Shown piece by piece: positions 4,337 to 41,865 of a stretch of 64,000 nucleotides of DNA. The stretch covers positions 496,001-560,000 of the forward strand of contig JAIOPC010000014.1 of NCBI GenBank assembly GCA_021414085.1, read 5' to 3'. A program made the position numbers and the translations under genes. The DNA is from Actinomycetes bacterium (GTDB lineage: Bacteria > Actinomycetota > Acidimicrobiia > Acidimicrobiales > Ilumatobacteraceae). The notes under the pieces were generated by a model. That model was not told the origin of the DNA. It saw nothing but the letters and a program-made list of their open reading frames with translations, and ran no database searches. Numbering within the stretch: the first letter of the stretch is position 1; each line of letters begins with the position of its first letter.

Positions 4337-5827
4337 ATGAATCGGATAGGTCATTGGATTGACGGCAAGGTCGTCGAAGGAACGTCAGGTCGCTCGGGCG
4401 TTGTGTTCGATCCGGCGACAGGTGCGCAGCAGGCGGCTGTCGACCTCGCTTCCGTCGAGGAAGTCGACCACGCAGTTGCGGTCGCGAAAGCGGCGTTTCC
4501 CGAGTGGCGCGCCACGAACCTCTCTCGGCGCGCCGAGGTCATGTTCCACATGCGCGAGCTCGTCGATGCCAATCGCAAAGAGATTGCATCGCTGCTGTCG
4601 AAGGAGCATGGCAAGGTGCTTGGCGATGCGCTCGGCGAAGTGGCGCGTGGCTTAGAGAACATCGAGTTTGCGTGCGGGATACCGAACCTGATGAAGGGCG
4701 GCTACAGCGAGCAGGCTTCGAACGGCATTGATGTGTACAGCATTAAGCAACCGCTCGGCGTTTGTGTCGGCATCACGCCGTTCAACTTCCCCGCGATGGT
4801 TCCGATGTGGATGTTCGCCAATGCGCTCGCCTGCGGCAACACGTTTGTGCTGAAGCCGAGCGAGAAAGATCCGTCGGTCAGCATGTTCGTGGGTGAACTG
4901 TTGAAGCAGGCCGGGCTTCCGGACGGCACGTACAACATCGTCAACGGCGACAAGGTCGCGGTCGATCGTTTGCTGACGCACCCCGACGTGCAAGCGATCA
5001 GCTTCGTCGGCAGCACGCCGATCGCGCGATACATCTACGAGACCGGTACCAAGAACGGAAAGCGTGTGCAAGCGCTCGGCGGCGCGAAGAACCACATGCT
5101 TGTACTTGCTGACGCCGATCTCGACATGGCGGCCGACGCCGCAGTCAGCGCCGCGTACGGCTCTGCCGGCGAGCGCTGCATGGCGATCTCGGTTGTGCTG
5201 GCCAGCGACGCAATCGCCGACGACCTGGTCGCCAAGATCAAAGACCGCTTGCCCGCGATCGTCGTTGGCCCGGCCAGCGAAGATGGCAGCGAGATGGGTC
5301 CGCTGATCACGGGCGAGCATCGCGACAAGGTGAAGGGCTACGTCGACGGTGCTGCCGGCGAAGGAGCGACCGTCGTCGTCAACGGCACATCGCCCAGCGA
5401 CTTGCCGGCCGACGGCTTCTTCCTGAAGCCGAGTCTGATCGACAACGCCAAGCCCGGTATGCGTTGCTACGACGAAGAGATCTTCGGGCCGGTGCTGTCC
5501 GTGACGCGCGTGAAGGGCTACGACGATGGCTTGGCGCTGATCAACTCCAACCAATTCGGTAACGGCACTGCGATCTTCACGCGTGATGGCGGCGCCGCCC
5601 GCCAGTTCGAGTTCGACGTGCAAGTCGGCATGGTCGGCATCAACGTGCCGGTGCCGGTGCCGGTGAGCTACTACAGCTTCGGCGGGTGGAAGGCGAGCCT
5701 GTTCGGCGACACGCACATCTACGGCCCGGAAGGAATCAACTTCTACACACGTACCAAGGTCGTCACCAGTCGTTGGCCCGACCCGCGCACCAGCCGCGTC
5801 GACCTCGGCTTCCCACAGAATCGCTAA
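4337..5827 (+). CDS. mmsA: CoA-acylating methylmalonate-semialdehyde dehydrogenase
   Basis: 496 aa aldehyde dehydrogenase. The active-site cysteine is Cys281 in AGERCMAISVVL, and VCVGITPFNFPAMVPMWMF and ISFVGSTPIARYIY are typical of the MmsA branch. It converts malonate or methylmalonate semialdehyde plus CoA and NAD to acetyl- or propionyl-CoA and CO2. In this cluster it would finish catabolism of beta-alanine and beta-aminoisobutyrate released by the two preceding enzymes, after transamination. It starts 29 bases after hydA. Confidence 0.92.
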   Translation: MNRIGHWIDGKVVEGTSGRSGVVFDPATGAQQAAVDLASVEEVDHAVAVAKAAFPEWRATNLSRRAEVMFHMRELVDANRKEIASLLSKEHGKVLGDALGEVARGLENIEFACGIPNLMKGGYSEQASNGIDVYSIKQPLGVCVGITPFNFPAMVPMWMFANALACGNTFVLKPSEKDPSVSMFVGELLKQAGLPDGTYNIVNGDKVAVDRLLTHPDVQAISFVGSTPIARYIYETGTKNGKRVQALGGAKNHMLVLADADLDMAADAAVSAAYGSAGERCMAISVVLASDAIADDLVAKIKDRLPAIVVGPASEDGSEMGPLITGEHRDKVKGYVDGAAGEGATVVVNGTSPSDLPADGFFLKPSLIDNAKPGMRCYDEEIFGPVLSVTRVKGYDDGLALINSNQFGNGTAIFTRDGGAARQFEFDVQVGMVGINVPVPVPVSYYSFGGWKASLFGDTHIYGPEGINFYTRTKVVTSRWPDPRTSRVDLGFPQNR

Positions 5828-5839
5828 GGGGGATCGACG

Positions 5840-6868
5840 ATGCAATTTGGTGTCGTGTTACAGACCACTCCGCCTTCGCGGCGCGTGATTGATCTCGCCA
5901 AGCGCGCCGAGAGTTACGGGTTCGACTACGTATGGACCTTCGACAGCCACATCCTGTGGCAGGAGCCATACGTCATCTACAGCCAGATTCTCGCCGAGAC
6001 GCGCAACGTCGTCGTCGGCCCGATGGTTACGAATCCGGCGACTCGCGACTGGACGGTTACGGCCAGCGTGTACGCGACGCTGAACGAGATGTTCGGCAAT
6101 CGAACTGTCTGCGGTATCGGCCGCGGCGACTCGGCAGTTCGCGTGACAAACGGTGCGCCGACAACGTTGGCCACGCTGCGCGAAAGCGTGCACGTGATCC
6201 GCGAGATGGCCAACGGACGCGCGGTGGACTACAAGGGCAGCGAGTTGCGCTTGCCATGGGCCGCCAAGAGTCGGCTTGAGATGTGGATCGCTGCCTACGG
6301 CCCCAAGGCGTTGGCGCTCGCCGGCGAAGTTGGCGACGGTTTCATCCTCCAGCTCGCCGATCTGTCGATCGCCGAGTTCACCATCAAGTCAGTGCGCGAC
6401 GCTGCCAAAGCCGCTGGACGCAATCCTGACGAGATCACGATTTGTATAGCTGCGCCGGCCTATGTGACCGATGGCAGCAAAGCGGCGCTCGAGCATGGAC
6501 GCGAGCAGTGCCGTTGGTTTGGCGGCATGGTGGGCAATCATGTCGCCGACATTGTGAAACGCTACGGCGACGATGCGCCGGTGCCGAAGGCGCTCACCGA
6601 CTACATCAAGGGTCGCGAAGGTTACGACTACAACGAACACGGTCAGGCGGGCAACACGCACGCCAACTTCGTGCCCGACGAAATCGTCGACCGCTTCTGC
6701 ATCATCGGCCCGCCGGAAGTGCACATCGAGCGCATGAAGCAATTGAAGGACCTTGGGGTCGATCAGTTCGCGGTCTATCTGCAACACGACGACAAGGACA
6801 ACACGCTGCAGGCATACGGCGAAAAGATCATGCCCGCCGTCGCCGAGCACGTGCGCGCCAAGTCGTAA
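5840..6868 (+). CDS. LLM-class (F420/FMN) oxidoreductase
   Basis: 342 aa luciferase-like TIM-barrel protein. It begins MQFGVVLQTTPPSRRVIDLA, then RAESYGFDYVWTFDSH, VVVGPMVTNPATRDWTVTAS and GIGRGDSAVRV, as in the LLM subfamily found next to dihydropyrimidinases. Cofactor may be F420 or FMN; the sequence alone does not settle it. It starts 12 bases after mmsA with a GGGGATCGACG leader. In this position it could act on a pyrimidine or hydantoin ring, possibly in place of the missing dihydropyrimidine dehydrogenase; that is inference. Confidence 0.8.
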   Translation: MQFGVVLQTTPPSRRVIDLAKRAESYGFDYVWTFDSHILWQEPYVIYSQILAETRNVVVGPMVTNPATRDWTVTASVYATLNEMFGNRTVCGIGRGDSAVRVTNGAPTTLATLRESVHVIREMANGRAVDYKGSELRLPWAAKSRLEMWIAAYGPKALALAGEVGDGFILQLADLSIAEFTIKSVRDAAKAAGRNPDEITICIAAPAYVTDGSKAALEHGREQCRWFGGMVGNHVADIVKRYGDDAPVPKALTDYIKGREGYDYNEHGQAGNTHANFVPDEIVDRFCIIGPPEVHIERMKQLKDLGVDQFAVYLQHDDKDNTLQAYGEKIMPAVAEHVRAKS

Positions 6869-6889
6869 CCCAGCGGGACGCCGGAATCA

Positions 6890-8524
6890 ATGACGTTTCC
6901 GGCGAACCCGACTTCCAACATGCACGGCGGCCTGGATTCCCCGGCCGACGAATCAGAACTACGCGGCGATGTTTTGACAGTCGCCGGCTGGTGCCTGATG
7001 GACGAGACGGCGGTCTCGCACGTCGACGTGCTCATCAACGGTGTCGAAATCGGTCGAGCGCGAACCTTTCTTGAGCGCCCCGACATAGCCGCGGTGTACC
7101 CACACCGCGATGCCCCAGTCGCCGGATTCCAAATGTTGGTACCACTGGAGGAGTGGTCGCCGAAAGCGCCGCTTGAAGTATCGGTGATCGCAACCGGCCT
7201 CGACGGACGGCGTTGGTACTCGAAGTCGAGTCGACTTCGGCGCGTGGTCGACGAGGCGAGTAGGGCCACTAGCGATCCGCGGCAACTCGACGAACAACGA
7301 AAGCTCATGCTGGCGAAGCGTGGCGCGCCTCGAGAGACACCAAAGGTAGTTGTCGTCACACACGACCTCGGTTATGGCGGCGCACAACTATGGCTGAGCG
7401 AGGCGCTCCGCCAGTTCCGGGAGCTCGACCACTTCACGTTCGACATCATTTCGTTCATGGATGGTCCGCTCCGACAGCCGCTTGAGGAAGCGGGAGCGTT
7501 TGTTCACGTGACCCCACCTCCTGCCATCAATGGTTTGGCCGCTCATGATGGTCGCGTCACTGAGTTCGCCGTGCTTTTCAGAGCTCTCGAAGCCGATGCC
7601 GTCATGGTCAATACGATCGTGCCGTTTCAGGCCGTTGAGGCTGCACACCTCCTCGGGTTACCGGTGGTTTGGGTAGTTCACGAGAGCTATGGGCTATCGG
7701 TGTTCTGCCACACTCTCTGGGGCGACGCGGTGGATTCGCGCGTTCGCGATCGGTTTGCGGAGGCCTTTGGGCTGGCCGAAGCACTCGTGTTTCAGGCAGA
7801 ACAGACTGCCGACTTGTTCAGCCATCTTTCATTGGCGTCGCGACGGCATGTCCTTGACCACGGGGTCGACATCGCTGAAATCGATGAGTACAGAAGGAAC
7901 TTCGACCGAGCGGGTGCGCGAGCACAACACGGCTGGACCGATCACGACATCGTCTTCGCTGTCGTCGGCACCTTTGACGGCAGAAAGGCACAGGCCGCGG
8001 TTGTGGCAGCATTCGACGAGGTTTTGTCGGTTCACGAAGAGGCACATCTCGTGATGGTCGGAGTGCAAGGCGGTCCCTTCGGCGATGCAGTTGCGGAGCA
8101 GGTTCGGCGCCTCGATAGCCCGCACCGAGTGACGCTTGTGCCCCTAACCCCAGACACCTACTACTGGCACGCGATCGCTGACGTAGCCGTTTGCGCGTCG
8201 GATATCGAGTCGCTACCAAGGTCGATTCTCGAAGCTATGGCGTCCGGCCAGCCGGTGGTCTCGACCGATGTCTTCGGATTGGCCACGCTCATCGACGATG
8301 GCGTCACGGGCTGGTTGACCAGGTGCAGTGACCTTCAGGGCTTGGTCGCAACGATGGACAGAGCGCTACGTTTGCAGCCCGCCGAGCGACGCACTGTCGC
8401 GATCGCTGCGCGTCAGGAGGTTGAGCGTCGCTCATCTAGCTCCTATGGCCTCGCCTTAGCGAATGCGCTGAGTGCTCTGATGGTTGATCGCAATGTGAAC
8501 CTGCAGCCGATTCTGAGTCGCTGA
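6890..8524 (+). CDS. Glycosyltransferase (GT4-like) with N-terminal accessory domain
   Basis: 544 aa. Residues about 20-115 form a beta-rich accessory domain (LTVAGWCLMDE, DVLINGVEIG, APVAGFQMLVPLEEW). The catalytic part follows, with VVVVTHDLGYGGAQLWLSEAL, a middle VVGTFDGRKAQ segment and the GT-B C-terminal signature ASDIESLPRSILEAMASGQPVVSTDVFGLATLI. It probably transfers a sugar from a nucleotide donor onto a surface glycan. It uses AGA, AGG and ATA codons (for example TACAGAAGGAAC) more than its neighbours and interrupts a metabolic block, which suggests recent insertion. No glycan cluster surrounds it. Confidence 0.8.
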   Translation: MTFPANPTSNMHGGLDSPADESELRGDVLTVAGWCLMDETAVSHVDVLINGVEIGRARTFLERPDIAAVYPHRDAPVAGFQMLVPLEEWSPKAPLEVSVIATGLDGRRWYSKSSRLRRVVDEASRATSDPRQLDEQRKLMLAKRGAPRETPKVVVVTHDLGYGGAQLWLSEALRQFRELDHFTFDIISFMDGPLRQPLEEAGAFVHVTPPPAINGLAAHDGRVTEFAVLFRALEADAVMVNTIVPFQAVEAAHLLGLPVVWVVHESYGLSVFCHTLWGDAVDSRVRDRFAEAFGLAEALVFQAEQTADLFSHLSLASRRHVLDHGVDIAEIDEYRRNFDRAGARAQHGWTDHDIVFAVVGTFDGRKAQAAVVAAFDEVLSVHEEAHLVMVGVQGGPFGDAVAEQVRRLDSPHRVTLVPLTPDTYYWHAIADVAVCASDIESLPRSILEAMASGQPVVSTDVFGLATLIDDGVTGWLTRCSDLQGLVATMDRALRLQPAERRTVAIAARQEVERRSSSSYGLALANALSALMVDRNVNLQPILSR

Positions 8525-36535: not shown

Positions 36536-37651
36536 TCAGACGGAAACGTCGACGAAAGGGTCGCCCAGTACTTCTTCGCGCAGTGTCAGTCCCAATCCCG
36601 GCGCGTCGGTCTGCGGTCGCAGGAATGAACCGTCGCGCGCCGACGGCCCGTCGACGTGTGTGATCGTCACCCAACTATCGAAGTCAACGGAGTGTGTCCG
36701 CAACCGCGCAGGCGTCGAGGCGTTGAGGTGCGCGAAGGTTGTGTCGGCGAGGTTGCAGCCCGAAGCATCCTCGACGGTCACACCGATGCCGAGCTGCACG
36801 GCAACGTCGCGAATTGTGGCCGCGGGCGTTATTCCCCCGACGCGGGTGAGCTTGATGGTCACGCCGTCGGCGATCCCATATTCGTAGGCCTGCAGTAGGG
36901 CGGCGAGCGACGTGATGCATTCGTCGATCACCATCGGACCCGCCCACGAATCGCGCAGGTGCGCGCAATCTTGGAGCGTTGCGCACGGCTGCTCGAGAAA
37001 CACGCCCGCACCATCCACGCCGAGCTCGCGCACGAATCGCCGCGCCGCTGAGAGCGAGAATCCGCAGTTGGCGTCGGCAAAGATGACGGTCTCGTCGCCT
37101 ACGGCCTCGCGCACCGCCAGCACGCGTTGCGCGTCGACGATTGGGTCGTCGCCAACCTTCACCTGCAGCCGGCGATAACCCTGGTTCAGCCGCTCGTGCG
37201 CTTTCGCTGCTGCGTCGGCGGGCGTAGCGCCCTGCACTGGTCGATACAGCGGCGTTGCCTCGGCACCGTCACCGCCGAGCAACTTCCACATCGGGGTGTC
37301 TGCGGCCCGCGCCGCCAAATCCCAGACGGCGATGTCGATCGGCGATTTGGCGTATGGATGCCCTGTCAGCGCCGCGTTCATGAGCCGATGGACGGCTTGT
37401 GGGCTACGCGGGTCGGCACCCAGCACAGCCGAGGCAAGCATCGTGACACCGGCGACTTGGCCGGCGGCGTGGTGAGCGTCGAAGGTGACACCGACCGTGC
37501 CAGATTCGCCGATGCCCATCGTGCCGTCGTCGGCGACAACACGCACGACAACCGCATCCATCCCCGTTGTCACTCGATCGCCCGCCATGCGGTAGCTGCC
37601 CTCGGCATAGGGGAGGTGTATCGACCAGCCGGTGACGCGTTCGATTCTCAT
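36536..37651 (-). CDS. Enolase-superfamily dehydratase/epimerase (mandelate racemase type)
   Basis: 371 aa from the ATG at 37651 (ATG at 37660 is also possible). Barrel motifs are visible: the second-strand lysine in RLQVKVGDDP, metal ligands Asp in IFADANCGF, Glu in FLEQPC and Glu in VIDECITS, then the sixth-strand lysine in VTIKLTRVGG. The C-terminal VTVEDASGCNLADTTFAHL recalls cis-3-hydroxyproline dehydratase and hydroxyproline-betaine epimerase relatives. Substrate unknown. Divergent from the MaoC gene with 19 bases between. Confidence 0.78.
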   Translation of the reverse strand: MRIERVTGWSIHLPYAEGSYRMAGDRVTTGMDAVVVRVVADDGTMGIGESGTVGVTFDAHHAAGQVAGVTMLASAVLGADPRSPQAVHRLMNAALTGHPYAKSPIDIAVWDLAARAADTPMWKLLGGDGAEATPLYRPVQGATPADAAAKAHERLNQGYRRLQVKVGDDPIVDAQRVLAVREAVGDETVIFADANCGFSLSAARRFVRELGVDGAGVFLEQPCATLQDCAHLRDSWAGPMVIDECITSLAALLQAYEYGIADGVTIKLTRVGGITPAATIRDVAVQLGIGVTVEDASGCNLADTTFAHLNASTPARLRTHSVDFDSWVTITHVDGPSARDGSFLRPQTDAPGLGLTLREEVLGDPFVDVSV

Positions 37652-37670
37652 GCGTGCCATTCTTGACGAC

Positions 37671-38183
37671 ATGAGCACCCACGAGCGCCCGTTTGGGCGG
37701 CACCTTGAGGACTTCGTAGTCGGCGATGTGTACAGACATTGGCCGGGCAAGACGATTACGGAGGCCGACAACCACTTGTTCTGCATGATCACGATGAACC
37801 ATCATCCGCTGCACACCAACGACTGGTTCGCTGCGCAGAGTGTGCAGGGTCGCAACGTCGTCGTCGGCAACCTGGTGTATTCGCTGGTGCTGGGTATGAG
37901 CGTTCCTGACGTGAGTGGCGCCGCGATCGCCAACCTGGAGGTCGAGACACTGCAACACAAGTTCCCGACCTTCCACGGCGACACCATCCATGCGGAGACA
38001 CGCGTGCTTGAGGTGCAGGAGAGCAAGTCGAAGCCCGACCGCGGAGTTGTCACCGTTGAGACCAAGGGCTTCAACCAAGACGGCTCCGAGGTGTGCTACT
38101 TCCGGCGGAGGGTGATGGTGTGGAAGCGCGCCTCGGCCCCAGCGCGAGCGCGGCCGTACGACACCGACCACGCTTGGGATTGA
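37671..38183 (+). CDS. MaoC-family hydratase (candidate mesaconyl-CoA hydratase)
   Basis: 170 aa hot-dog fold hydratase. Motifs: EDFVVGDVYRHWPGKTITEADN, MNHHPLHTNDWFAAQS, GRNVVVGNLVYSLVLG and VVTVETKGFNQDGSEVCYFRR. This matches the short actinobacterial MaoC proteins that accompany citE/ccr genes and hydrate mesaconyl-CoA to beta-methylmalyl-CoA. With mcd and mcl1 elsewhere in the window it would fill the missing middle step; this is inference because it is 13 kb from them. Its stop overlaps mutY (TTGA). Confidence 0.75.
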   Translation: MSTHERPFGRHLEDFVVGDVYRHWPGKTITEADNHLFCMITMNHHPLHTNDWFAAQSVQGRNVVVGNLVYSLVLGMSVPDVSGAAIANLEVETLQHKFPTFHGDTIHAETRVLEVQESKSKPDRGVVTVETKGFNQDGSEVCYFRRRVMVWKRASAPARARPYDTDHAWD

Positions 38184-39025
38184 CCCCGGACTCGGTCGCA
38201 GCCGTTCTTGCCAGGGGAGTGCCGCTACTGCGCGAACTGCCATGGCGAAGAACTCGCGATCCGTGGGCTGTTCTTGTTAGCGAGGTGATGCTGCAGCAGA
38301 CGCAGATCGCGCGCGTGATTCCGAAGTGGATTGCCTTTCTAGAGCGCTTCCCAACTGTCGCCGACTGTGCGGCGGCCGAACTCGGTGACGTACTAAGACT
38401 GTGGCAGGGCCTCGGCTATCCGCGAAGAGCGCGCAACCTGTATGAAGCGGCGGGTGAGATTGATCGGCTCGGGACGTTCCCCGACACTCTCGAGCAGTTG
38501 TTGGCACTCCCCGGCGTCGGTGCTTACACGGCGCGGGCTGTACTGACGTTTGCATTTGAGGCAGATGCAGCGGTAGTCGACACCAACATTGCTCGCGTGT
38601 ACGCCCGGGTCGCTGGTCATCGGCTGACGACCACGCAGGCGCAGGCAATGGCCGATGCCTCCTTGCCCCTCGGCGACAGCTGGCGATGGAATCAATGCCT
38701 CATGGATCTCGGCGCGACGCTGTGTCGACCCGTGCCGCACTGCGCCGACTGCCCCTTGCGCTCGACCTGCGCTTGGCAGCTGGCGGGATGCGACCCCGTG
38801 CTCGACCCAGCGGTTGGCTCCGCCGGGGTGAGCCGACCACAAAGCCGGTTCGAGGGCAGCGAGCGCCAAGCACGGGGTCGGTTGTTGAAGGCACTGACTG
38901 CGGGCACCGTCAGGGTCGATGACGTATCGAAGGTGATGCAACACCCAGCCGCGATGCGACTGGTCGAGGCGTTGTGTGCTGAAGGCTTAGTGCGCCTTGA
39001 GGGCAAGACGCTGCGGCTGCCTTAG
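38180..39025 (+). CDS. mutY: A/G-specific adenine glycosylase MutY
   Basis: 281 aa from a TTG at 38180 that overlaps the MaoC stop. WAVLVSEVMLQQTQIARVIPKW holds the catalytic Glu. The helix-hairpin-helix is LPGVGAYTARAV and the catalytic Asp is in VVDTNIARVYARV. The 4Fe-4S cluster ligands are CRPVPHCADCPLRSTC (C-x6-C-x2-C-x5-C). It removes adenine opposite 8-oxoguanine. The C-terminal NUDIX-like domain of E. coli MutY is reduced, as is usual in actinobacteria. Convergent with the selenoprotein gene, overlapping by 4 bases. Confidence 0.9.
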   Translation: MTPDSVAAVLARGVPLLRELPWRRTRDPWAVLVSEVMLQQTQIARVIPKWIAFLERFPTVADCAAAELGDVLRLWQGLGYPRRARNLYEAAGEIDRLGTFPDTLEQLLALPGVGAYTARAVLTFAFEADAAVVDTNIARVYARVAGHRLTTTQAQAMADASLPLGDSWRWNQCLMDLGATLCRPVPHCADCPLRSTCAWQLAGCDPVLDPAVGSAGVSRPQSRFEGSERQARGRLLKALTAGTVRVDDVSKVMQHPAAMRLVEALCAEGLVRLEGKTLRLP

Positions 39026-39546
39026 GGCGCTTGCGTAATGGCGGCAACGATCGCTTCGAACGCGTCGCGGGCGTAGGCGCGCATCTCGTCGTCGGTGCGG
39101 TCTTGAATTGGGTGAGGAGTAAACACCCGCGCGACATCGGTAAACCCGAGAGAGTTGGCTTGTGCGGTTGCGGCGTCGACGAATTGCGCAGACGCGACGA
39201 ACATCCCGGGCACGCCGCGCCGCTCAAGATCCACGATGTCGTGCACACTGCACGACGTACAACTGCCTCAATCGGCGAGCGCTTCAATTACAAGCGTGCA
39301 TTGCGTCGCGATTTCGTGCCGCAGGTCGACAGGTGCGGGCTTCGTGAACGTGGGCTTCTGGTAGCGACGTACCTTCGCGCCAGCATCGGCCAGTAGGACT
39401 TCGAGTTGGTCGAGGAAGATGTCGCCGCGCGGTTTGTGAATATCCAGCAGCCCAACCACTTGACCCGATAACGACGCGGGGCGTGCGAGTCGCTCGCGTT
39501 TCAACGGCGAACGTTCGCTGGTGGGATCGAGCAGTTCTCGCGTCAT
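39022..39546 (-). CDS. UGSC-family selenoprotein (in-frame UGA = selenocysteine 93)
   Basis: 174 aa when the UGA at 39270-39268 is read as selenocysteine; ordinary calling would split it into two fragments (39268-39546 and 39022-39246). The first half ends VIEALAD, the UGA follows, and the same frame continues GSCTSCSVHDIVDLERRGVP, MFVASAQF and PHPIQDRTDDEMRA. This is the UGSC family, named for its Sec-Gly-Ser-Cys motif. The Sec/Cys96 pair (U93-G-S-C96, then C99) suggests a redox centre. GAGG precedes the ATG, 10 bases after the thioredoxin-fused gene. A CGSC form exists in some species. Confidence 0.88.
39238..39256 (-). promoter_or_regulatory. Bacterial SECIS-like hairpin after the UGA
   Basis: In the mRNA, GTCGTGCA pairs perfectly with TGCACGAC around a GTG loop. 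The loop guanine is the 20th base after the UGA, inside the 16-37 base range known for bacterial SECIS elements, which need a G at one of the first two loop positions. It overlaps codons of the conserved motif region, as expected for a coding-region SECIS. Confidence 0.7.
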
Positions 39547-39556
39547 GGCGCGAACC

Positions 39557-40984
39557 TCATTCCGCGACCAGCCGCGTCACCGGTTGAGATCCCATTTCGC
39601 CGTTCACCCATCCGCCGATCATGGCAGAGAACAACCCGGCACTGCCACCGGCGTGAACAAGCAGGATTCCATCGGCGCGGAACTTGGGCAGCGTTGCGTC
39701 GCGGAACTGTTCGGGTACCCCATCGGCGATGCCGCCAGCGCCCCACACCAAGTCGGCGCCCGCCAGTTGCAGCCGTTGATGAATCTCGGCAAGCAATCGC
39801 TCACGATCCCAGCTTGCCTCGGCGCACACATGTGCGTGCTCCGGACCGATCACCAAAATCGCGTCGAAGCCGTAGACCAGCTTCGGGTTGTGCAGCGTGC
39901 GCAAGCAAGCCGCGAACACGTTGGCGAGCTCTTCGGCTGTACGCACCTTCTGGTCGACGATGCAGCGCGGCCCTTCGCCGGCGAAGACGGTGACCGCGTT
40001 GTCGGCTGGCGAGCAGCCGCGGCTGACGGCTAGCGAGGTGAACGGCGAGTCGTCCTCGCGTTCGGCGAAGCAGAAGCTGAGCTTGCCGGGATTGCCATGC
40101 GTCGCCCGATCGACCTCGCCCGGCCGACCACCACCCACGTTGCGAATGATCAACTGCACCGCGCGGCCGATGGTGAGGTTGGCTCTGTTGCCCTGGCCCA
40201 TCGCGTTCACACCACTGTTCATGCCGATGGCCCTCGTGCCCGGGCCGTTACAAACGATCACTGGCCCTACTGGCATGGTCGTCGCCAGCACTCCGTGGAT
40301 GTTGAACTCGTCGCTGCACACAGCTTCGATTGCGGCCAGCACCCATGGCAGGTACTCAGGTTTGCAGCCAGCCATCACGGCGTTGATTGCGGCCTTCTCC
40401 ACCGTCAGTTCAACGAGGTCGGGTGCGACCACTGCAACAACTTCGTCGGGTGCACGCTTCGTGCCCTGCAGCATTCGCAACACGCGCTCTGCTGTCGGTG
40501 GCATAACGGGTAAGCCATCGGTGAACCCGCGATCGAAGAGCAACTCCATCTCATCGTCCAGCTCTGCCAACTCGAGTCGGCGCGCCTTCAAGATGTCGCC
40601 GCTGAATCGTGCGCGCAGAGCGTCGACACGATCTGGGTCGACACTCAGTGATCCGCAGCCGGGGCGAAACGCGGGGAGCTCGTCGCCGAGTTGCGGGTTG
40701 CCGGTGAGCCGCCTCCACTCGTCGCGGACCCAGCCGACTGTGCGCTCGACTTCCACTCCACCCTCGACCTTGATCAGCGTTGGCACCGTCTCAATGTCGT
40801 GGTGCCAACTCACCTCCAAATCATGATCGTGAATGGCCGCAACCCCTTCGGGAAAGGTTGGGTCGTCCTGCGTGTACACGGCCGCGCCTAGATCGCTCAG
40901 CAGTGGGGCGACCATTGCGCATGTTGCACAGTCGCGTTTAACGACGACGACCAACCCGTCGGGCAACGTCTCCTGCTCGTTCAT
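39557..40984 (-). CDS. Thioredoxin-fused protein of unknown function, partner of the UGSC selenoprotein
   Basis: 475 aa. Residues 10-110 form a thioredoxin-like domain with active site Cys19-Ala-Thr-Cys22 (VVKRDCATCAMVAPLL) and a cis-Pro segment (DIETVPTLIKV). Residues about 145-475 are a separate domain I cannot name: GFTDGLPVMPPTAERVLRML, INAVMAGCKPEYLPWVLAAI, GPVIVCNGPGTRAIGMNSG, NAMGQGNRANLTIGRAVQLI and DAILVIGPEHAHVCAEASW. Conserved Gly/Asn loops and several Cys suggest an enzyme. It overlaps the hydrolase gene by ATGA and precedes the selenoprotein by 10 bases, so the three act together. Confidence 0.7.
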   Translation of the reverse strand: MNEQETLPDGLVVVVKRDCATCAMVAPLLSDLGAAVYTQDDPTFPEGVAAIHDHDLEVSWHHDIETVPTLIKVEGGVEVERTVGWVRDEWRRLTGNPQLGDELPAFRPGCGSLSVDPDRVDALRARFSGDILKARRLELAELDDEMELLFDRGFTDGLPVMPPTAERVLRMLQGTKRAPDEVVAVVAPDLVELTVEKAAINAVMAGCKPEYLPWVLAAIEAVCSDEFNIHGVLATTMPVGPVIVCNGPGTRAIGMNSGVNAMGQGNRANLTIGRAVQLIIRNVGGGRPGEVDRATHGNPGKLSFCFAEREDDSPFTSLAVSRGCSPADNAVTVFAGEGPRCIVDQKVRTAEELANVFAACLRTLHNPKLVYGFDAILVIGPEHAHVCAEASWDRERLLAEIHQRLQLAGADLVWGAGGIADGVPEQFRDATLPKFRADGILLVHAGGSAGLFSAMIGGWVNGEMGSQPVTRLVAE

Positions 40985-41865
40985 GACACAAAACTGAGGA
41001 TGCGCGCGTTAACGATCTCGGGCTGTTGGAGGTGCAAGAAGTGGCCGGAGTTTTCGATGATTTCAACCGCGACATTTGCAGGAAGCGAGGTTGCAGCTGA
41101 CTGCGCTACTTCCACCCCGATGCACCCGTCTTGGCGGCCGTGCAGATACAGCATCGGCTGGGGTGGCACGACCTGAGTGGCGTTCTGCGCGTCGTCGTAG
41201 CGCGCGTCTCGCTTTCCGCTGCCGAGCGTGGCGCGGTAGTAACCAAGCGCCGCGCTCAGGTTGGCAGGGTCGCGCAACGCCGCCTTCACCAACGGTAAGT
41301 CAGTCGCCGCGTCGTAGCCGGGTGACCATTGCGCCCACAGTCTGTCGATGAACGCGAGATCGTTAGCGGGCACCACCACGTCGGCAAGGCCGTGCAGGAA
41401 GAAGAACATGTACCAACTGTTCTGCAGCTGATCAAGGTTCGTCAGCAGTCCGAGTGCGATGGCGGTGCCGGGCGGTACCGCCATCGTGACCACCCGTCGC
41501 CACCGATCGGGTTCCAACACAGCCGCGGCGTGCGTGCCCGTCGCGCCCCAATCGTGACCGATGATGACCGCGTCGCCGTTCCCGCCCAACGCGTCGTGCA
41601 GAGCGTTGGCGTCGGTACCCAGCGCCCCCGTTTGGTAACACCCGTCGGCCGGAATCTGCGTTGGCGCATAGCCGCGCTGGAATGGTGCGATCGCACGAAA
41701 TCCGGCGTCCGCCAGCGCTGGCAAAAGGTGTCGCCAGCCGTGCGCCGTATCTGGAAATCCGTGCAGGCAAAGGGCGAGCGGGCGGCCAGCGTCTTCGGCG
41801 CCGGCTGACAAGTACGCGAATTCCACTCCGTTGGCGTTCACAGTTCCCTTTGCCAGAACGCCCAT
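40981..41865 (-). CDS. Alpha/beta hydrolase (epoxide hydrolase/dehalogenase-like)
   Basis: 294 aa. Oxyanion-hole LCLHGFPDTAHGW is followed by the nucleophile elbow AVIIGHDWGATGTHAA, with Asp as nucleophile rather than Ser, and a C-terminal His in IENSGHFLHLQQPE. An Asp nucleophile is typical of epoxide hydrolases and haloalkane dehalogenases. It is the first gene of the operon with the thioredoxin-fused protein and the selenoprotein, which hints at metabolism of a reactive or halogenated compound. Divergent from the MBL gene at 41980. Confidence 0.8.
   Translation of the reverse strand: MGVLAKGTVNANGVEFAYLSAGAEDAGRPLALCLHGFPDTAHGWRHLLPALADAGFRAIAPFQRGYAPTQIPADGCYQTGALGTDANALHDALGGNGDAVIIGHDWGATGTHAAAVLEPDRWRRVVTMAVPPGTAIALGLLTNLDQLQNSWYMFFFLHGLADVVVPANDLAFIDRLWAQWSPGYDAATDLPLVKAALRDPANLSAALGYYRATLGSGKRDARYDDAQNATQVVPPQPMLYLHGRQDGCIGVEVAQSAATSLPANVAVEIIENSGHFLHLQQPEIVNARILSFVS

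Follow-up and report, generated by a model that had tools for sequence, protein, structure and literature searches.

A UGSC-family selenoprotein gene beside a conserved thioredoxin-domain partner that carries a second selenocysteine site in related loci

The locus described here raises the question of whether an in-frame TGA on the reverse strand of the window (the whole 64,000-nt stretch of DNA that was analyzed) is read as selenocysteine (Sec), and of what the resulting protein might do. The gene (39022..39546, − strand) is a single 175-codon frame that runs from the ATG at 39546 to the TAA at 39022 and encodes 174 aa, its sole interruption being the TGA at 39270-39268 (39268..39270, − strand), which is codon 93 and forms a UxxC pair with Cys96 three residues on. 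A preliminary description had proposed one 174 aa frame with ALAD-U-GSCTSCSVHD at the join, and the coordinates, frame, length and motif were all reproduced, as were the two truncated ORFs expected around the UGA, which the ORF list gives as 92 aa (39268-39546) and 74 aa (39022-39246). Membership in the UGSC family is likewise borne out by two profiles above their curated cut-offs, Pfam PF24696 “UGSC family” (residues 4-171, E 2.3e-45, 155.2 bits against a cut-off of 25) and NCBIfam NF041046 “UGSC family (seleno)protein” (residues 28-170, 163.9 bits against 125). Since a single profile spans both halves and runs through the TGA in each case, the continuous reading goes beyond chance.

Within this known selenoprotein family the window gene is nothing unusual: it agrees with PF24696 and NF041046 in profile, motif, Sec codon and SECIS-type hairpin, Cys forms of the family exist, and the protein itself shows no difference from them. 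With 255 sequences in Table 2 of PMC2398784, UGSC proteins rank with the most frequent selenoproteins of the Global Ocean Sampling data, and the available text of that paper assigns them no function. The new elements of the present work are a module formed with a partner gene, the second Sec site in that partner, and a stand-alone tail protein related to it. Of the two cysteines said to lie beside Sec93, Cys96 proved to be family-wide (Cys at the third residue past the Sec site in 124/124 readable copies, a set of mostly close kin), while Cys99 is not conserved across the family (Cys at the sixth residue in 104/124 of the same set). Sixteen diverse sequences give the invariant positions as P8, K64, residue 93, G94, C96, D103, G111 and H145, again without Cys99. 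The effect of the TGA on routine annotation can be seen in a Paracoccus ferrooxidans relative, which is annotated as two “hypothetical proteins” flanking its TGA.

The machinery for reading UGA as Sec is present in the same genome. The preliminary description had pointed to selA, selB, selC and selD as genes to look for, and all four were found in the window genome (3.2 Mb, 97% complete): one tRNA-Sec with anticodon TCA (UCA in the RNA), which scores 67 bits and so exceeds the Rfam cut-off, and protein matches over cut-off to SelA (400.6 bits), SelB (273.6 bits) and SelD (311.1 bits), with SelA and SelB adjacent on contig 10. At the level of the order (148 genomes) UGSC occurs in 68 genomes and SelA in 89, with both in 64, UGSC only in 4, SelA only in 25 and neither in 55 (Fisher 4e-16). 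The four UGSC genomes lacking SelA comprise one with Cys-type copies only, two drafts (84% and 78% complete) and one with a marginal UGSC match; of the 65 genomes classed as TGA-type, SelA is present in 63 and missing from two, which are these same drafts. The other sampled genome of the window's genus has no match to UGSC, the partner or SelA. The genes are also found side by side, in the order selA-selB-partner-UGSC in four Acidimicrobiia-type loci and partner-UGSC-selA-selB in five gammaproteobacterial-type loci.

The codon at the Sec site in relatives agrees with the proposed Sec at this UGA. Over loci L020-L149 we obtained 126 UGSC copies (the readable profile matches plus two TAG loci, from 129 matches), in which the codon is TGA in 116, TGC in 6, TGT in 2 and TAG in 2, so that 8 copies carry Cys. 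Three of the 129 matches have no readable motif, two being split by TAG and one ending at a contig edge, and two apparent “TGC” rows come from the downstream halves of the TAG loci, which were counted as TAG instead. Close relatives, in which a normal stop or a broken frame would have counted against this reading, keep the TGA in an intact frame. Among the matches listed for the 68 of 148 genomes of the order that have the family, nearly all contain exactly one TGA. Outside that order, all three haloarchaeal copies that were read have Cys. The two TAG codons (L087:7662-7664 and L099:7662-7664, from Blastococcus and Geodermatophilus) are followed by the hairpin described below, and their hosts are Candidatus Blastococcus massiliensis and Geodermatophilus obscurus. 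The source cited for UAG-encoded Sec in Geodermatophilaceae is reportedly Mukai 2016. UAG-encoded Sec in UGSC-motif proteins of this family is described in the available text of PMC5330540.

Downstream of the UGA, a bacterial SECIS-type hairpin, GUCGUGCA-GUG-UGCACGAC (39238..39256, − strand), begins eleven nt past the TGA and has a stem of 8 bp, a 3-nt loop that starts with G and lies 19 nt from the UGA, and a local energy of −12.6 kcal/mol. These values fall within every limit quoted for bSECIS elements in the Figure 2 legend of PMC13188914, as far as that source was available (loop of 3-9 nt with G in the first two places, stem of 4-16 bp, 16-37 nt from the UGA, MFE of −7.5 or lower). All 8 pairs form in 71/116 TGA copies, and 99/116 have 7 or more, compared with 8 pairs in both TAG copies and 1-6 pairs in the 8 Cys copies; these counts, like the codon counts, overstate the number of events because related copies are not independent. 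The pair 15-27, which joins two third codon positions, is kept in 113/116 TGA copies (GC 73, GT 24, AT 10, CG 6). The stem is also stronger than its synonymous recodings (on average, −12.6 vs. −7.9 kcal/mol), and a rank of 0.05 or less against such recodings is reached by 59/116 TGA, 2/2 TAG and 2/8 Cys copies. No signal emerged when the 70-nt region surrounding the UGA was folded as one piece (z −0.36), and under a 48-nt codon null TGA and Cys copies could not be told apart (mean z −1.05 vs. −0.92), whereas the test specific to the hairpin performed better. An Rfam scan returned sub-threshold matches only. The SECIS signal sits in the local hairpin and not in the wider region. With these results in hand, we regard it as nearly certain that UGA codon 93 is decoded as Sec, with the tRNA-Sec and SelB of the host cell reading it and the downstream hairpin assisting.

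The upstream neighbor of the UGSC gene, absent from the preliminary description, belongs to the same unit. This partner gene (39557..40984, − strand; 475 aa) ends with its stop 10 nt before the UGSC start; it has no Pfam match, and in NCBIfam it finds a thioredoxin match below cut-off only (18.9 vs. 96.8 bits). An alpha/beta-hydrolase gene (40981..41865, − strand) shares 4 nt with the beginning of the partner gene and is probably in the same transcript, and relatives of it stand upstream in 5/80 named loci. A predicted model of the partner (73 sequences, pLDDT 92.0) places a thioredoxin-fold domain at residues 1-96 (40697..40984, − strand), which matches thioredoxin chains at Z about 8 and holds a CATC motif (C19, C22) whose two cysteines are kept in at least 90% of the 73 aligned rows. 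It is followed by a linker motif, PGCGS, around Cys110 (40655..40657, − strand), and by a C-terminal domain of roughly residues 132-475 (39560..40591, − strand) with Cys207 in the sequence NAVMAGC. This last domain is common to long, short and fused partners, the short ones being without the thioredoxin domain and also without the Cys110 linker. With thioredoxin and the TlpA/ResA-type oxidoreductases the partner shares the fold of residues 1-96 and the CxxC motif; it differs in lying far under the NCBIfam cut-offs and in continuing into a PG-Cys/Sec linker and an undescribed domain. The whole-partner model gave no usable fold match for the C-terminal domain, and a class I fumarase that was considered as a relative was rejected as too poor a match (E 2e-4, TM 0.23, rmsd over 15).

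Partner and UGSC travel together. A partner match was present on 30/30 close UGSC stretches (in one of which, L044, read wider as L061, about 1.1 kb lies between the genes) and on 20/20 further stretches picked for diversity, L061 included. Each of the two families occurs in 68/148 genomes and both occur together in 66, leaving 2 and 2 genomes with one alone (Fisher 5e-37). UGSC without partner is seen in one genome with a marginal match (G018) and one draft (G063), and partner without UGSC in one draft with a strong match (G055) and in G108, where the match (7.7e-4) is absent with the longer profile. Copy numbers of the two are correlated as well (Spearman rho 0.94) and are equal in 51/70 genomes that have either; UGSC is present in at least two copies in 42 of these 70, with a maximum of 10. 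Starting from the partner, 75/80 named loci kept by the partner-profile scan have UGSC on the fetched stretch, and of the remaining five, three stop at a contig edge and two have none nearby (L073:4371-5498 and L139:704-1930, from genomes that both have SelA). Gene order varies among loci: UGSC lies about 3.9 kb from the partner in L083, the two genes are divergent in L106 and L114, and in six fused genes they share one frame. A separate partner match (G051:C1:1354250-1355296) contains one in-frame TAG.

A fusion of UGSC to a second conserved domain, Unknown_1, with a conserved Cys, was reported from the Global Ocean Sampling data (PMC2398784) and resembles these fused genes in joining UGSC to a second conserved domain. 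Judging from the available text, Unknown_1 is probably the C-terminal domain of the partner; that text speaks of no independent partner gene, no thioredoxin domain and no Sec in the second domain.

The linker residue of the partner is itself a Sec site in part of the family. In five loci of our first sets a TGA falls exactly at partner Cys110 (PG-U-GS), and a search of 397 genomes of the order gave, among the matches listed, at least 16 partners with one TGA, all from one family (f54). Two of the 16 were already among the five, and the other 14 all have TGA at residue 110, which brings the total to 19 loci. The UGSC gene beside the Sec-type partner is also TGA-type in the 14 f54 loci and in L039, L049, L121 and L130; in the betaproteobacterial locus L145 the partner has Sec and the neighboring UGSC has Cys (TGC). 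A hairpin that pairs nt 13-20 with nt 26-33 past the TGA is common to 18/19 Sec-type loci, with 8 pairs in 12/18 and 7 pairs in 6/18 and with an exchange of C-G to U-A at pair 18-28. The same register in 79 Cys-type partners yields 8 pairs in none and 7 pairs in 10, and we used the exact register because a loose SECIS test is unspecific (39/79 Cys partners pass it). For a tree of 118 partners the residue-110 motif and the next 15 residues were left out; in it the Sec-type partners form a clade of 18 plus L145, whose nearest row (L116) has Cys; the distribution of Cys and Sec at residue 110 needs two state changes, and the starred branches force two. SelA was found in 11/11 genomes checked, that of L145 included. 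Ordinary gene calling would break partners with TGA at Cys110 in two. We did not find the Sec sites of the partner or of the tail proteins described below in Table 1 of a 2026 review (PMC13188914), in Pfam or NCBIfam families above cut-off, or in the available portions of selenoprotein papers and of the literature that names UGSC.

The first half of the partner also exists by itself. Eleven stretches (L246-L256) are covered by the long partner profile in its thioredoxin part and linker alone, having come from weak partner matches in genomes without UGSC (the exceptions are L256, which has UGSC, and L254, with a marginal UGSC match); since the 237/397 genomes matched by that profile include such thioredoxin-part-only matches, this figure is not a count of partners. 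All eleven stand-alone thioredoxin-like proteins end in PG-U plus 6-8 residues and then a stop. In 10/11 the hairpin is inside the published bSECIS limits and lies across or near the stop, with L248 failing at −3.9 kcal/mol. These proteins suggest that the partner may combine a Sec-tailed thioredoxin and a substrate-type domain in one fusion. The tail proteins, homologous to the partner's first half, occur in 9/12 genomes with a full-length or long GRDB match vs. 2/136 others (p 1.6e-10), the count of 2 being a minimum, since genomes that have a true partner were read at their first match only. In the nine genomes the tail-protein and GrdB genes are on different contigs, and the GrdE-type domain PF09338 is also present at two of those GrdB loci.

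The UGSC protein itself shows a weak profile likeness to the PrdB/GrdB selenoproteins (PF07355), which like UGSC have Sec in a UxxC motif. Comparing the UGSC profile with 25 PrdB-like selenoproteins of the same order aligned Sec on Sec (E 6.5e-4, score 31.3), at an HH-suite probability of 27.6% over 68 columns, while 19 control families gave E 0.072 or higher and scores of at most 20.0; an earlier PrdB profile of 7 sequences matched more weakly (probability 9.3%, E 0.0035). The differences are that PF07355 has no match at E 0.001 in the window genome and that no GrdE-type subunit was seen beside UGSC; the partner's C-terminal domain resembles neither. As to the pyruvoyl-forming subunit of glycine and proline reductases (GrdE/PrdA, PF09338), the partner gave no Pfam match. 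Across the order PF07355 has matches in 52/148 genomes, and PrdB-like selenoproteins (VLLVPV-U-PVCH, then GIPT) are common. Many PF07355 matches are short proteins ending at an in-frame TGA where the model stops (loci L162-L169 and L224-L243).

The genomic surroundings give some indication of how such a pair might be used. Thioredoxin genes adjoin it on plasmids, with the order trxB-trxA-partner-UGSC in Arthrobacter, partner-UGSC-trxB in Roseovarius, and trxB upstream in Variovorax; trxB was present in 3/9 and trxA in 1/9 annotated stretches (10 were fetched from 24 matching records, nine of them annotated). Some short partners, which have no thioredoxin domain of their own, stand on plasmids after trxB-trxA, before trxB or after trxB. 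The surroundings of diverse UGSC copies look catabolic, with short-chain dehydrogenases, amidohydrolases, luciferase-like monooxygenases, a hydantoinase, CoA-transferase and enoyl-CoA hydratase named from the 25 commonest of 81 families (81 ORFs scanned), and with TRAP or tricarboxylate transporters and isocitrate-lyase-family genes on plasmids. The neighbor clusters across the 80 named loci mostly mirror close kinship, selA/selB excepted.

Taken together, the Cys-linker pattern, the trxB/trxA neighbors, the catabolic settings and the possible kinship to PrdB favor a thioredoxin-fed reductase acting on small catabolic substrates. We consider it slightly more probable than a coin toss that UGSC and its partner make up a two-subunit enzyme of this kind, resembling glycine and proline reductases, with the following mechanism, and the stand-alone tail proteins raised this estimate slightly from an even chance. 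The UGSC protein would be one half of the enzyme, with Sec93 as the catalytic nucleophile and the C-terminal domain of the partner holding the substrate that it attacks. Resolution of the selenium bond would then fall to Cys96, yielding a Se-S bridge, and re-reduction of the enzyme to the thioredoxin domain of the partner (C19/C22), with linker residue 110, which is Cys or in some lineages Sec, serving as a mobile arm. The gene, the Sec signals, the machinery, the coupling to the partner, the thioredoxin fold and neighboring thioredoxin genes, and Sec110 in relatives are computed results; from them we infer the physical complex, the direction of electron flow, the nucleophilic chemistry, the substrate and the redox role that the preliminary description had thought likely.

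The same motifs could be read differently, as those of a thioredoxin-linked antioxidant or disulfide-repair pair that acts on general oxidants or proteins and not on a small catabolic substrate, since pairs of this sort commonly have UxxC and CxxC motifs along with thioredoxin genes. We judge this unlikely, though it deserves weight, given that a genome may hold up to 10 diverged UGSC copies with partner copies tracking them, and that the neighbors are of catabolic type, with transporters and isocitrate-lyase-family genes on plasmids.

The predicted fold of the UGSC protein brings in another alternative. A model from 71 sequences (pLDDT 91.8, pTM 0.86) has alternating strands and helices (E30 H41 E58 H73 E85 H94 E114 H120 E140 H152), with Sec93 predicted to lie between strand 85-91 and helix 94-109. 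Fold matches are mostly Rossmann or flavodoxin-like, with no thioredoxin among the matches listed, and to that extent the model looks unlike the thioredoxin fold supposed for UGSC in the available text of PMC2398784. Sequence searches against solved structures gave a best E of 0.077 for UGSC and no relative for the partner. The best fold match is chain H of 8s7v, from the methyl-coenzyme M reductase activation complex (VIA Z 12.4, rmsd 3.0 over 130 residues, 12% identity; next 10.6), which is presumably Mmp7, a protein whose McrC-like domain holds Fe-S clusters according to the available text of the 8s7v structure paper. This match might suggest that UGSC serves in electron transfer to, or activation of, a metal or Fe-S enzyme, as in that complex. 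Such a role appears quite improbable to us, as Z values of 9 to 10 are common among unrelated Rossmann-like chains, the identity is low, and no Fe-S or nickel enzyme is prominent among the annotated recurring neighbors. That the TGA is an ordinary stop between two short genes or within a decayed one, as the plain ORF list would have it, we hold to be extremely improbable with the post-TGA part conserved in 116 TGA copies, Cys at the same site in 8 others, a hairpin under selection and the Sec machinery present.

Returning to the two-subunit thioredoxin-fed reductase, a broader joint reading can be offered tentatively, at somewhat less than even chances. UGSC and its partner may represent an undescribed class of such reductases in bacteria (with a Cys form in haloarchaea), remote kin of proline and glycine reductase, with many substrate-specialized copies per genome. 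The partner might then be a new selenoprotein family whose origin is a thioredoxin-like protein bearing a mobile PG-Sec tail; elsewhere this protein would stand alone and serve GrdB-type reductases. Sec might also have moved between subunits in evolution. The near-constant partner, the thioredoxin links, the catabolic settings and the second Sec site turn an orphan motif into a candidate two-component enzyme that is open to tests with purified proteins.

Two further genes may be recorded here. The window also encodes an enolase-superfamily protein (36536-37792, − strand) whose best NCBIfam match is cis-3-hydroxy-L-proline dehydratase (289.8 bits against a cut-off of 500). On a Vibrio europaeus plasmid (L223:3001-8288), a 561-aa protein (5323-7008) begins with a UGSC match of borderline strength (24.9 bits; the cut-off is 25), also matches the partner, and adjoins genes for aconitase X, a DUF126 protein and an enolase.
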